Below, piece by piece: positions 10,000 to 15,209 of a DNA stretch of 38,022 nt. The stretch is from contig JAUNCA010000003.1 in assembly GCA_030526775.1 (NCBI GenBank), positions 1 to 38,022 on the forward strand. The letters are read 5' to 3'. The number at the start of each line of letters is the position of its first letter. Position 1 is the first letter of the stretch. The notes under the pieces were generated by a model. The model was not told the DNA's origin. It made no database searches and was given only the letters and a program-made list of their open reading frames with translations. The DNA comes from Coriobacteriia bacterium (GTDB lineage Bacteria; Actinomycetota; Coriobacteriia; Coriobacteriales; Eggerthellaceae). The translations under genes and the position numbers were made by a program.

Positions 10000-10005
10000 T
10001 ATAAT
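10000..10005 (+). promoter_or_regulatory. -10 box TATAAT placed for leaderless transcription of the TIR gene
   Basis: A consensus TATAAT is followed by CTGGCC and then the ATG at 10012. Transcription starting at the usual distance would begin at or next to the A of ATG. There is no purine-rich ribosome-binding site. The -35 region is weak. The DUF3810 gene at 35792 has the same arrangement. Confidence 0.55.
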
Positions 10006-10011
10006 CTGGCC

Positions 10012-12321
10012 ATGGAATGTGTCCTATGCCATAAACAGCTTCCTGAATGGGCGGTGTTTTGCCCGGCGTGCAACACGCAGCAACCGGGAGCTGTCGAATG
10101 CGAAGACATCGAATACGCGGCATTTATTAGCTATCGGCATTCGCCGACCGATCAGAGTGTGGCTCTGGCCGTCCAGAAGGCCATCGAGCATTTCAAGCTT
10201 CCGCGTACGCTCTCCAGCCCCATACAAGTGGCGCCCGGTCGCAGGCTCGGGCGCGTTTTTCGCGATGAGGACGAGCTGCCCGCCGCCCATTCGCTGCCCG
10301 ACAGGATAACCGACGCCCTTATGAAGTCGCATTCGCTTATCGTGGTGTGCTCTCCCGAGATGCGGACAAGCATGTGGGTGAAGCGCGAAGTGGAAACGTT
10401 CGCTTACCTACATGGCTGCGATCGCATCTTCGCTGTCCTGGCGAGCGGGAATGAGCTGGAAAACATCCCCGAGATTCTACGGAGCAAGACGGTTATCGGC
10501 CCCGATGGCGCGCCTTGCATAATTGCAACCGAACCCCTCGCTGCCGATTTTCGCCTGGAATCGCATAATCGTATGTCCCTCGAGAAGCTGCGCATTATCG
10601 CTTCAGTTGCCGGTTGCGACTTCGATGACCTTCGCCAACGTAGCCAGAAGCGAAAGCGGAGAATAGCAGTCTCCATCACGGCGATGGTGGTTTTGATGGG
10701 CTGTGTGTTGGGAGTGTTTGGGCTGAGGGCTCACGAGGAACACCAGCGGGCGCTGTTTGCGGAATCGTATCGGCTGGCCATCCAATCTCAGCAACTGCTT
10801 GAACAGGGAGACCGCTACGGCGCCATCGAATCTGCGCTTGCGGCGCTTCCGAAATCCAGCGCCGACAACAGGGATTATGCACCGATAGCTGAGGACGCGC
10901 TGGAAGCGGCGTTGCAAGTGTATCCGAGCAACGCGGCTTGGCTGACCTGTTACTCGATAGAAACGGAATCGCCCATAGGAGATCGCATCGACGGCTCGTC
11001 CTTCTACGATGCATCTATCGTTGACGGAACATCCGATTCGGATTCGAACGATCTCAAAGCAAGCGCCATTACCGTCAACGAGAAGAAAGGCTGGTTTGCC
11101 TACGCACAGAAAGATGGCACGGTAGCCATTCACGATATCGAAACTGGCCGGAGAATCCAGACGTTCCGAATAGGCGAAGATGGGCAACCGATGACAGACT
11201 TCACATCATGCGATCTCGCCTTCGTAGGCAACACGCTTCTCTTACGCGCAAAGAATGCCACGCAGTCAAAACTTGTGGCCATAGAAGTTGACGGGGATTC
11301 CCTAACCTTCAAGTGGGCGGATGATACCGAAGCTACCAACCTCGTAGTTTCCGACCAGGGTCAACTTGCCATAGCGGGGCTTGCCTACGGCAGGACTTTG
11401 AAAGCCTGGCTCTTGTCTCCTGATGGCGGTAAGAAGCTTAGCGAGGTTACAGCTGAAATCGGAGATTTCGCGTACGATGCAACCGATCCCGAAGCAAGTT
11501 CCGGCGTATTTCACGAGAAGACCGGCGATCTCTACCTTGCCTTTGGTGGCCTTCTCGTACGCGTGGATGCGCAAGCCGGCACGCTCGGGGAATCGGGCGT
11601 TCAGAAGGCGCAACTTGCCAACAAGCACGTTGGCGCAGCTCAGTATGCGAACGGGCTCGTCATTGTCGCGTCTTATGGCGATGGGGACGAGGGCAAGAAC
11701 ATCCCCTATGCAATCGAGGCTTTCGACAGCTCATTGAAACGGATTTGGAAGAATACCGGTCAATATAGCGGGAGTAGTATCGTCCGTGAGGAAGACAATG
11801 GTCGCATCATCGTATATGGAAATCCGAACCTGTGTGGCGCAGCGCTCGATGACGGCTCTGTCATCAGCGTGAGCGTCGGAAGCCATATCATGCTAATTGA
11901 CACGCGTTCGGGCGAAGTGCTCTACGATGAGGCGAAATCGTGTACCGTGGTGGGGCTGAGCCCAAACACGCAAGATGCATCGAAGCTTGATGACATCGTC
12001 CTTGTCGTAGCGACCAGAGATGGAGCGGTGATGGGGGAGCTTCCGTTTATCGCGTCGGGGACCTACACCCGGAGCTTTACTACGATGCTTTCCGAACCGA
12101 TTCGCTGGGCGCGGGCTTGCTGTCCAAAATACACTCGCACGAACACCATAGGAATCGGCTTATACGTAATCGCACTGTCTGCCGAGAACGAAAGCAAAGT
12201 ATTTGTGTATCGGTCGAGCTTCATCGTGCCGAAAGATAAGGTTAAGACAGAGGGTGATTACAGCCTTGACGAGCTTCGGAGCCTTGCTCACGACACACTG
12301 AAAGCTGCCGGTAGAGAATAA
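10012..12321 (+). CDS. Zinc-ribbon/TIR-domain transmembrane protein with propeller-like C-terminus
   Basis: A 769-residue multidomain protein. Residues 3-20 form a CxxC...CxxC zinc ribbon (CVLC, CPAC). Residues about 33-150 are a TIR domain, with YAAFISYRHS, VFRDEDELP, LIVVCSP and SMWVKREVETF. Glu126 in WVKRE aligns by eye with the catalytic glutamate of SARM1-type TIR NADases (WVHKE). A basic run (KRKRR) precedes one transmembrane helix (about 218-239), predicting TIR inside and the rest outside. Residues 245-310 are helical (Ala/Leu-rich, like segments flanking beta-propellers), and about 330-740 show beta-rich repeats suggesting a propeller. The ATG at 10012 is preferred over the open frame from 9958 because TATAAT lies 6 bases upstream. 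It may be an extracellular sensor that triggers NAD+ cleavage or signalling; this is inference. Confidence 0.8.
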   Translation: MECVLCHKQLPEWAVFCPACNTQQPGAVECEDIEYAAFISYRHSPTDQSVALAVQKAIEHFKLPRTLSSPIQVAPGRRLGRVFRDEDELPAAHSLPDRITDALMKSHSLIVVCSPEMRTSMWVKREVETFAYLHGCDRIFAVLASGNELENIPEILRSKTVIGPDGAPCIIATEPLAADFRLESHNRMSLEKLRIIASVAGCDFDDLRQRSQKRKRRIAVSITAMVVLMGCVLGVFGLRAHEEHQRALFAESYRLAIQSQQLLEQGDRYGAIESALAALPKSSADNRDYAPIAEDALEAALQVYPSNAAWLTCYSIETESPIGDRIDGSSFYDASIVDGTSDSDSNDLKASAITVNEKKGWFAYAQKDGTVAIHDIETGRRIQTFRIGEDGQPMTDFTSCDLAFVGNTLLLRAKNATQSKLVAIEVDGDSLTFKWADDTEATNLVVSDQGQLAIAGLAYGRTLKAWLLSPDGGKKLSEVTAEIGDFAYDATDPEASSGVFHEKTGDLYLAFGGLLVRVDAQAGTLGESGVQKAQLANKHVGAAQYANGLVIVASYGDGDEGKNIPYAIEAFDSSLKRIWKNTGQYSGSSIVREEDNGRIIVYGNPNLCGAALDDGSVISVSVGSHIMLIDTRSGEVLYDEAKSCTVVGLSPNTQDASKLDDIVLVVATRDGAVMGELPFIASGTYTRSFTTMLSEPIRWARACCPKYTRTNTIGIGLYVIALSAENESKVFVYRSSFIVPKDKVKTEGDYSLDELRSLAHDTLKAAGRE

Positions 12322-12431: not shown

Positions 12432-14327
12432 ATGGCGCTTTTCAAACCGAAGTGGATGACGGATAACCGCGCCAAGCTCGATAAGGCCGTGCAGGCTGTG
12501 GGAAAGATCGGCGACCAGGAGGCCTTGGCTGAGGCCGCCCTGCATGCGCCGCTGGAAGAAGTACGCATCGCCGCGGCGAAGAAGGCGGTCAGCCAAGACG
12601 TGCTCGAGCGCATCGTCGAGCAATCGGGCGAGAAGCCCGTCGTTCAGGCGGCGCTTCACAACTTGATGATGGCGTATGCCGGCAGGCTGAGGGAGTTGGA
12701 GCGCATCGCCTACCACCCGGACATGGCCAACGAGGACATCCTGGACATTTTGCAAGCGGTTGAACCCGAGGCACGGCAGCGCATTATTAAGGAACACGTC
12801 GATAACGAAGATCTTATGTTGCAGGTTGCGCTCCACGCGCTCGGAACGGGCACCCAGCGTGCGGCTGTGCGTCACATCTTTTCGTATGAAGCGTTGTTGC
12901 AGGTTGCGGAGATAACCGTCGGCGCAAAGACGCCGGCCTATGCCGCCAAGCGACTCGCGGAGCTGTATCCCGACAAGGCCAAGGAAGAACTGGAGCGCGC
13001 GATTGTGCGCCAGATTCGCAGCGGCTTCATCAAACAGGCGGTTGAGCTGCGCGAACAACTCGATGCACCACGTGATGCCAGGCGGTTCGAACGCGATGTG
13101 GTGGATGCGCTCATCTTCCAATGGCTTTCGATCCAAGGTGAATCCGCGCGTGAGGCGGCGCGGCTCATTCAGTCTCTGACTCGGCCGGATGCGCTGTTTA
13201 TGCTCGCCTGCAACCTGCGCTTTAAGGATGCGAAGAGCGTTGCCGAATCCCGGACCAAAAAGGGCCGTGAATCCCTGGCAACCGTGGTATTCAGCATGCT
13301 GGACAACGACCAGCTCGTGCGGCTTGTCGAGGACAATTCCCGGTTGGAGAAGGAGTGTACGCCCGATACGGTGCGAGCGATTCGGCAATGTGCACTCATC
13401 GAGCTTGCGAGCAGGTCCGATGGCCAACAGGTTCTGGAAGGTATCGTAGAGCAGCACCTCGACGAGCGCGATCCACGCGGGCTGCAGTTCATCACGGATG
13501 TGCCCTGGTTGCTTGCGGTTTCCAGGTCCGGGGTGAAACCGTCCGTGCAATCGCGTTTGTGCGACGTGGTGAAATCCGAGGACGCAATCGCCGACATCCT
13601 CATCAACGGCCTTGCGTCACACAAAGAAGTAGTCGCGGGCAGTCCGGCCAGCGCGAGTTGCGACAAAGACCGGGCGAATCTCGTGTCGCGTGTGAAAGAC
13701 AAGGTGATGCTGGAGAAGCTGTCGGTGGAGGCGCGCGATGTGTATATCCGCAGCGTGGCTGCGCGTCGGTTGCGGGAAAAACACGGCTGCGATGCAGTGC
13801 GGGTGTTGCATGACGTGTGCCAGTACTGCGGCGGCGCAGTGGCAGAGACCATGGCCTATGCGGGAACCACCGAGGAGCATCTGCGTTGGGATTGCCAGGG
13901 GTGCGGGCGCTTCCAGGACAAAACGCTGTTCGGACGTGGCTCATCCAACCAGATTTCGGGCGACTATTACGTGTTCGGCGAGCTCGGTGAATGGATGGAC
14001 GCCTCCTCGCTGGAGCCCGAACCGCCCGCTTCTCCCGCGAGCAACGGCGCGGAAGAAGCTGCTGCAGCTTCCGCTTCTGCCCCCGCAGCACAGCCTCCGG
14101 AGGCCGAGCTTACGGACAGCTACGAGTGCAAGGGTTGCGGCCACGTAGTCTGGTTCGGGCCAGATTCTGCCGATCCGTGCGTCTGCCCGAGCTGCGGTAC
14201 CGAGAATCACCGGTGGTTCACTTCGGGTAACGTCATTGACTACCGCGACTATTCGGCCGGCACGCGCTGGGACGAATGCTCCCGCTGTGGCGCCAGGAAG
14301 AACTACCGCACGGTGAACACGATGTAG
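12432..14327 (+). CDS. Helical-repeat (HEAT-like) protein with C-terminal zinc ribbons
   Basis: A 631-residue cytoplasmic-type protein. Residues 1 to about 455 are almost entirely alpha-helical with repeated Ala/Leu/Glu-rich helix pairs (ALAEAALHAPLEEVRIAAAKKAV, VQAALHNLM, LQVALHAL), like HEAT or HEAT-like repeats. Then comes a first zinc site (Cys463, Cys466, Cys488, Cys491), a Pro/Ala/Glu linker (about 525-558) and a second ribbon with CKGC at 566-569 and CPSC at about 585-588. A final CSRC at 616-619 ends the protein. The start at MALFKPKW is fixed by GGGGAGG nine bases upstream; the longer frame from 12327 lacks support. It lies 110 bases after the TIR gene and 9 before another zinc-ribbon gene. 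Likely a scaffold or nucleic-acid/protein-binding partner; function unknown. Confidence 0.7.
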   Translation: MALFKPKWMTDNRAKLDKAVQAVGKIGDQEALAEAALHAPLEEVRIAAAKKAVSQDVLERIVEQSGEKPVVQAALHNLMMAYAGRLRELERIAYHPDMANEDILDILQAVEPEARQRIIKEHVDNEDLMLQVALHALGTGTQRAAVRHIFSYEALLQVAEITVGAKTPAYAAKRLAELYPDKAKEELERAIVRQIRSGFIKQAVELREQLDAPRDARRFERDVVDALIFQWLSIQGESAREAARLIQSLTRPDALFMLACNLRFKDAKSVAESRTKKGRESLATVVFSMLDNDQLVRLVEDNSRLEKECTPDTVRAIRQCALIELASRSDGQQVLEGIVEQHLDERDPRGLQFITDVPWLLAVSRSGVKPSVQSRLCDVVKSEDAIADILINGLASHKEVVAGSPASASCDKDRANLVSRVKDKVMLEKLSVEARDVYIRSVAARRLREKHGCDAVRVLHDVCQYCGGAVAETMAYAGTTEEHLRWDCQGCGRFQDKTLFGRGSSNQISGDYYVFGELGEWMDASSLEPEPPASPASNGAEEAAAASASAPAAQPPEAELTDSYECKGCGHVVWFGPDSADPCVCPSCGTENHRWFTSGNVIDYRDYSAGTRWDECSRCGARKNYRTVNTM

Positions 14328-14336
14328 GAGGGCTGC

Positions 14337-15209
14337 ATGGCGTTAGCATGCAAGATAGCTGGCCACAAATGGAACGGTTGCAAATGCTCCCGCTGCGGTG
14401 AGAGACGCAATGAGGGACACGACTATCGCTTCGTCGAGGGTTCGTGCCGGAAGAGATGCCCTATCTGCTATGACTCGTTCAACGTGCCGCACGATTGGCA
14501 CGGGTGCGTATGTTCCCGGTGCGGAGAGAAGCGGGATTGCGACCATAGTTGGAATAAGGCGGAAGTGTACTCGGGTGGCGGCTCGAAGAAGCGGCTGTAC
14601 CATCTGAAGAAATGCAGTACGTGTGGCACGATTAAGCTTCCACCCCACACATTCACCCGAGTCGAAGGATGTCTCCGTCGGTGCGCAGAATGCGGATACG
14701 AAGGTGTTTACCACGAGTTCGAACGTGGGAAATGCCGCGACTGCGGTACAAACGAGAACGAGTTTTACTGCAAGCTCATCGCTTCCGGTGAGGTGAGCTA
14801 CTACGACAACGAAACCAAGCACGGCCAGATATATGTGAAGTACGGTGACCACGTGACCAGCGTTTCCGCTCGCGCGAAGCTTATCGTGGCGCTCGCTACC
14901 AGCGGGCGCAAGGGCCAGGACATTACTGTGCCAGTAGAAACGCTGCTCAAAGAGCTTTCCAAGACGGCGGCAGGCACGAGTAAAGAGGCTCAAGCCGCCA
15001 ATCGCGCCCTGCGCAAGATTGCTCTGAACGGCTCCATCTCCATCGGCTGGCGCGAGAAGGCATGTGCTGGTATCGCCGATTCCGCCCTGCTGGCGGAACC
15101 GGTTGCGGTCCTCAAACGCTGGCGCGAGGCTCACAAGCCCACGCAAGCCGATATCGACTACGAGAATGCCATGATAGCCATGGACAGCGGCCTCGGCCGT
15201 TCGGGATAA
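14337..15209 (+). CDS. Tandem zinc-ribbon protein, unknown function
   Basis: A 290-residue protein with a Cys-rich N-terminal half and a helical C-terminal half. Two near-identical units, GHKWNGCKCSRCGERR (9-24) and PHDWHGCVCSRCGEKR (51-66), are followed by CSTCG (93-97), CAECG (116-120) and CRDCG (133-137). These are likely several zinc ribbons in series. Residues about 175-290 are Ala/Lys/Glu-rich helices. GGAGGG precedes the ATG and the gap to the helical-repeat gene is only 9 bases, so the two are surely co-translated from one mRNA. The C-terminal CSRCGARKN of the upstream protein resembles the repeated CSRCGE(R/K)R unit here, hinting at shared ancestry or binding partner. No signal peptide or transmembrane helix. 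Confidence 0.7.
   Translation: MALACKIAGHKWNGCKCSRCGERRNEGHDYRFVEGSCRKRCPICYDSFNVPHDWHGCVCSRCGEKRDCDHSWNKAEVYSGGGSKKRLYHLKKCSTCGTIKLPPHTFTRVEGCLRRCAECGYEGVYHEFERGKCRDCGTNENEFYCKLIASGEVSYYDNETKHGQIYVKYGDHVTSVSARAKLIVALATSGRKGQDITVPVETLLKELSKTAAGTSKEAQAANRALRKIALNGSISIGWREKACAGIADSALLAEPVAVLKRWREAHKPTQADIDYENAMIAMDSGLGRSG

Follow-up and report, generated by a model that had tools for sequence, protein, structure and literature searches.

A family of predicted membrane-anchored TIR receptors with a beta-propeller ectodomain is associated with RyR-domain genes in bacteria

Bacterial proteins that combine a TIR domain, a transmembrane (TM) helix and a beta-propeller form a family that is tied to genes encoding RyR-domain (PF02026) proteins, and this association is a new finding. 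In the open literature no paper on a bacterial TIR receptor with a RyR partner was found, only a preprint on the phage protein RyDEP, and other reports could exist outside it. The member described here in most detail, P0001, is encoded in the window, that is, the whole stretch of 38,022 nucleotides analysed from a Coriobacteriia bacterium (contig JAUNCA010000003.1). Four properties of the family were computed, namely its architecture, its conservation, its association with RyR genes and the conservation of ligand residues in the RyR partners. The best reading of them, and a fairly probable one, is that the TIR receptors signal to RyR-domain effectors by a messenger of the cyclic ADP-ribose (cADPR) type.

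The domain order of P0001 (Table 1) is the one proposed in the initial annotation, a zinc ribbon followed by TIR, TM helix, helical segment and a repeat-rich region, and it is borne out by the open reading frame, Pfam, hydropathy and an AlphaFold model. In the alignment of relatives, the zinc ribbon is confined to the Coriobacteriia members of the family. The TM helix is present as the sole hydrophobic segment of the protein, with a best 19-residue window at residues 218-236 (KD mean 2.53), a helix in the model and no second TM segment. Lys and Arg are richer in the flank before this helix than after it in 94/94 testable relatives. Because of this bias and the lack of a second TM segment, the TIR domain is predicted to be inside and the propeller outside, which supports the orientation earlier read from the basic run. 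P0001 would therefore be a single-pass protein with a cytoplasmic TIR and an extracellular propeller, as predicted from its sequence. The AlphaFold model (mean pLDDT 83, 28 aligned sequences) contains a propeller-like series of strands in the C-terminus, and Foldseek retrieved WD40 and BamB propellers with it (E about 1e-12 to 1e-10), so that structure prediction recovered the suspected propeller.

Table 1. Features of the window and of related loci (positions without a locus prefix are those of the window).
Feature	Position	Strand	Evidence
TATAAT, perfect, six bases before the TIR-gene ATG	10000..10005	+	sequence read
TIR-TM-propeller receptor gene P0001, 769 aa	10012..12321	+	ORF and translation; Pfam TIR; AlphaFold model
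N-terminal zinc ribbon, CxxC...CxxC, Cys3/6/17/20	10018..10071	+	CxxC pairs; weak Zn_Ribbon_1
TIR domain, residues 34-160	10111..10491	+	Pfam ThsB_TIR/TIR_2; PDB profile matches ROQ1, TcpB
Glu126, catalytic-type glutamate, SxWxxxE	10387..10389	+	95/95 relatives; aligned with ROQ1 Glu86
Basic run RSQKRKRR, residues 210-217, N-terminal of TM helix	10639..10662	+	sequence; Lys/Arg bias in relatives
Transmembrane helix, single, residues 218-239	10663..10728	+	hydropathy; model helix, low confidence at 230-235
Juxtamembrane helical segment, residues 240-303, predicted outside	10729..10920	+	model helices; 54% median identity
Beta-propeller ectodomain, residues 304-735, strongly diverged	10921..12216	+	model; Foldseek WD40/BamB; 20% median identity
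Downstream gene, helical protein with C-terminal zinc ribbons	12432..14327	+	no Pfam match
Second downstream gene, Cys-rich zinc-ribbon protein	14337..15209	+	sequence; no Pfam family
K+ channel pore, Rossmann-like region and C-terminal RyR	L150:6883-8547	+	TVGYGD; four RyDEP residues
K+ channel-RyR homologues	L148:7963-9537; L151:280-1842; L164:7358-8839		TVGYGD; four RyDEP residues
Tandem second TIR-TM genes	L051:4213-7974; L065:4175-7963; L068:1683-5471		
NaChBac-like single-domain voltage-gated cation channel	L016:9213-10058		Ion_trans E 2e-48; filter TLEGW
DHH/DHHA1 phosphoesterase	L059:6453-7985		

The TIR domain of P0001 scores 24.6 bits against Pfam ThsB_TIR, over the cut-off of 21.2, and 27.6 bits against TIR_2, slightly below the cut-off of 28. 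In a comparison of the family profile with the PDB, Trp122-x3-Glu126 falls on Trp82-x3-Glu86 of ROQ1, Glu86 being the catalytic residue of this plant protein. Glu126 is identical in 95/95 relatives by alignment columns and, like Trp122, Ser120, the FISYRH core and FRDxDEL, is invariant or nearly so across these relatives of two phyla. The conservation of FRDxDEL was partly selected, because [VCM]FRD[EQ]DEL formed part of the pattern used in the search for relatives; E126 lay outside that pattern. A catalytic-type glutamate is thus found in SxWxxxE on helix alpha-C, as expected of TIR NADases of the SARM1/ROQ1 type, and the earlier placement of Glu126 at the catalytic position holds. The domain is accordingly of a predicted NAD-cleaving type. 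In a gut-focused screen, 28/152 bacterial TIRs were NADase-active as isolated domains (PMC9092222).

One scan yielded 236 relatives (best 80 of the 236 kept), distributed among gut Coriobacteriia, Lachnospiraceae, Erysipelotrichaceae, Oscillospiraceae and Bacilli. The source genome, 85.5% complete in 254 contigs, has six family matches, of which two are truncated by the end of a contig, and no match to P0001 was found in 50,697 phage records. Within the order, the distribution is patchy, since the family is present in 33/299 genomes. Neighbour clustering combined with Pfam places RyR-domain proteins beside family members. RyR domains occur in 34 of the same 299 genomes and both partners in 24 (odds ratio 68, Fisher p=2e-20, a value that ignores shared ancestry). 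In the order survey, 20/36 RyR genes have a family member no more than 8 kb away vs 0.24 expected at random, a figure that also ignores shared ancestry. Conversely, 20/44 family matches have a RyR gene within this distance, and about half have none over the cut-off there. The link recurs in two phyla and, within the tree, in several branches that are separate from one another. Because relatives have RyR-domain neighbours, the idea of a nucleotide signal, raised in the initial annotation, gains independent support.

The RyR domain is found C-terminal to varied modules, such as helical, kinase-like, HD-like, TM-Rossmann and K+ channel modules. Most partners are over the PF02026 Pfam cut-off, while the TM-Rossmann type is below it and has a weak RyR-like end. 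The helical partner of Eggerthellaceae has an N-terminal helical region of ~430 aa, and its model (pLDDT 78) matches human RyR3 Repeat12 and a Bacteroides RyR. For the kinase-like partner the kinase domain match is weak, and the HD-like partner (at L025) was called from a sequence motif. Four proteins join a K+ channel with a TVGYGD filter to a RyR domain (L148, L150, L151 and L164), and a second, TM-Rossmann gene (612-631 aa) is located near them. At L150 a gap of 83 bp separates the fusion gene from a TIR gene of the family, and at L148 it is at most 3 kb from two family TIR genes on the same strand. Judged by their sequences, these fusions are candidates for messenger-gated bacterial channels. 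In the Mediterraneibacter group, stand-alone RyR proteins of 93 aa precede tandem TIR genes in a same-strand cluster. The second TIR-TM genes of three tandems (L051, L065 and L068) have a very long branch and keep the glutamate; placed beside a stand-alone RyR gene, they are possibly regulatory or divergent copies.

In phages, RyR domains use His75, Trp78, His100 and Asp117 to bind or cleave 2'cADPR and 3'cADPR (PMC13232231). All four residues are kept, with exact spacing, in the Mediterraneibacter stand-alone proteins and in the K+ channel type. Most helical and kinase types keep the His and Trp of the RyDEP set. His100 is missing from the helical and many kinase types (mostly Ser or Asn instead), and in most helical and kinase types Asp117 is replaced by Asn or Thr, mainly Asn. 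Since these two positions are mostly replaced, the helical and kinase types may be binders or may favour another ligand. RyR-like stretches are also encoded in 215 phage records, and those of two human faecal phage contigs share 36-44% identity with the bacterial RyR protein of 93 aa. The phage stretches are consistent with counter-defence against TIR/RyR systems.

Other genes adjoin some relatives. In the source genome (contig C15, L016), the NaChBac-like channel gene follows a TIR paralogue at a distance of 68 bp. In the loci compared, other family members had no homologue of it nearby; the channel was consequently rejected as a family partner, and its position may be a coincidence. A DHH/DHHA1 phosphoesterase gene adjoins a Firmicutes family member at L059, and the same is seen at L070, L076, L095, L097, L099, L104 and L105, eight loci altogether, at no more than 60 bp from the TIR gene, mostly directly upstream and with no RyR found nearby. 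This enzyme is a possible signal-degrading or alternative partner. At L079, L087 and L091, NUDIX hydrolase genes are located 15-62 bp from family TIR genes and possibly act on ADP-ribose.

Regarding the window copy, the locus search found no RyR gene within 8 kb of P0001. The protein nests, nonetheless, in a clade of 15 rows (starred in the tree, support 100/92) that is characterized by the helical-RyR partner: 11 members have this partner, and the others are P0001 and three in which no partner was seen (L026, L034 and L035), whose available sequence stops no more than about 220 bases from the TIR gene end or inside the gene. Median pairwise identity in the clade is 20% for the ectodomain, 61% for the TIR domain, 54% for the helical segment and 57% for the RyR partner, and this divergence of the ectodomain against conserved TIR and partner matches the expectation for a receptor that changes its sensor and keeps its signalling parts. 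The source genome has one RyR gene over the cut-off, on contig C8, adjoining a TIR paralogue, and a second TIR copy (C52, L018) shares sequence with an overlapping TM-Rossmann gene whose end is weakly RyR-like. In the simplest reading, P0001 would have lost or become separated from its partner and would signal in trans to the C8 RyR protein. The position of the TATAAT suggests a leaderless transcript for the TIR gene, for which this motif is a candidate; the consensus promoter scan found no + strand promoter at window 10000-10012. Co-transcription of the first downstream gene (12432..14327) is possible. A homologue of this gene is found near L035 (in 2/41 relatives) and one of the second downstream gene near L032, and with homologues near these two other members only, the downstream zinc-ribbon genes were rejected as family-wide partners. 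To judge from gene content and Pfam annotation, P0001 does not lie in a defence island, and PADLOC gave only a weak TIR match for it.

From these data we infer catalysis, messenger identity, gating and purpose along the following lines. The variable propeller outside the membrane would sense some cell-surface cue, and sensing would gather the cytoplasmic TIR domains, being brought together as a general property of TIRs. The TIR domain, with Glu126, would then make from NAD+ a messenger of the ADP-ribose type, probably an isomer of cADPR, that RyR (Repeat12-like) proteins may read throughout the family, with the helical, kinase-like, HD-like, TM-Rossmann and K+ channel modules as putative outputs. 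The window copy would most likely act in trans on an effector of this kind, the sole RyR gene of the source genome being that on C8. The likeliest purpose would be stress or anti-phage signalling. Several facts count against this reading: the window copy without a RyR neighbour, the TIR copies of the order (about half) with no RyR gene over the cut-off in the 8 kb around them, the RyDEP residues replaced in helical and many kinase-type partners, the low share of bacterial TIRs active in isolation (28/152), and the many Firmicutes members that have DHH or NUDIX neighbours instead. The complete chain, in which an outside signal acts through the membrane TIR and a cyclic ADP-ribose messenger to open a K+ channel or to switch a kinase-like or other module by a RyR-type domain, is put forward tentatively. 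If true, cADPR/ryanodine-receptor signalling would have a counterpart in bacteria, from which its logic might possibly descend.

Several alternatives have to be weighed against messenger signalling to RyR effectors. The TIR domain could kill or arrest the cell directly by NAD+ depletion, as many TIRs of abortive infection do, no messenger being read and the RyR neighbours being unrelated or protective. The invariant catalytic-type Glu and the window copy without a RyR neighbour would fit such an action, but there is a strong family-wide association with a domain that binds cADPR isomers (PMC13232231), and depletion without a messenger is disfavoured because this association is hard to account for otherwise; we regard it as unlikely. 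Alternatively, the RyR neighbours might be off-switches instead of effectors and, like RyDEP, remove the messenger by binding or hydrolysis. The 93-aa Mediterraneibacter proteins keep the His75/Asp117 dyad and are in a same-strand cluster with two TIR genes, in favour of this role. However, in most partners RyR is joined to another module of large size (K+ channel, kinase-like or TM-Rossmann), and the helical type and several kinase types have Asn in place of Asp117, as would be more fitting for a sensor than for an enzyme, which leaves the off-switch role improbable. Even less credible is a non-catalytic TIR scaffold that signals by protein contact, like animal MyD88. Most isolated bacterial TIRs that were screened lacked NADase activity (PMC9092222), as such a scaffold would; yet relatives from two phyla all keep Glu126, Trp122 and Ser120, unlike scaffold TIRs, and the tie to RyR genes implies that the product is a small molecule.

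More weight is given to an environmental or envelope receptor of a nutrient, host or neighbour cue, with NAD-derived signalling and without a role in phage defence, a reading that overlaps the preferred one and is possible, if doubtful as a full account. It would agree with a window locus outside any defence island, with the weakness of the PADLOC match, with the lack of any match among the phage records searched and with an exposed propeller, which fits extracellular cues. On the other hand, patchiness, several copies in one genome and a variable ectodomain are traits of conflict systems, and the swapped output modules, as well as the RyR-like stretches in phage records, fit a conflict system better.

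The closest known systems share different parts of this design. Thoeris (ThsB TIR and ThsA) has in common with the family a TIR with a catalytic-type Glu, an adjacent effector that would respond to a messenger of the ADPR type, and swapped outputs; here the TIR has a membrane anchor and a propeller predicted outside, and the partner would use RyR, not SLOG or Macro. With the Thoeris models, P0001 gave no NCBIfam or PADLOC match and was over the cut-off for Pfam ThsB_TIR, the TIR of L150 reached 25 of 220 bits against the Thoeris model, and with PADLOC neither the TIR nor the RyR partners could be usefully classified. Among the window neighbours, no ThsA-type effector (SIR2-SLOG or TM-Macro) adjoins P0001, the family partner being of the RyR type, and a Thoeris partner was therefore not recovered, because there is no SLOG or Macro effector. 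Animal Toll/TLR receptors share one TM helix, a TIR inside and a repeat ectodomain outside, as predicted for P0001. The likeness to Toll proposed in the initial annotation does not extend to the arrangement, which is inverted: instead of an N-terminal LRR ectodomain and a C-terminal TIR, the TIR is N-terminal, the C-terminal ectodomain is a propeller in place of LRRs, and a catalytic-type TIR replaces the adaptor-recruiting one. The TIR NADases plant ROQ1 and SARM1 are related by the aligned Glu and Trp and differ in being intracellular, with sensing by NBS-LRR or ARM domains. The RyR partners have the same domain as phage RyDEP and animal RyR Repeat12, and several types keep all four RyDEP residues, but they are bacterial, carry the domain C-terminal to outputs such as a K+ channel and are encoded beside a TIR receptor. 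In this sense, the family would supply the host-side counterpart to phage RyR proteins that bind or destroy cADPR signals, and the small bacterial RyR proteins make the old question of the RyR Repeat12 ligand directly testable. Actinobacterial Ser/Thr kinase-TM-propeller receptors also have an enzyme inside, one TM helix and a propeller outside, the enzyme here being a TIR and not a kinase. In the described bacterial TIR signalling systems sensing is mostly intracellular, and outside-sensing TIRs tied to RyR outputs would add to them membrane reception and RyR-gated outputs, K+ channels included.
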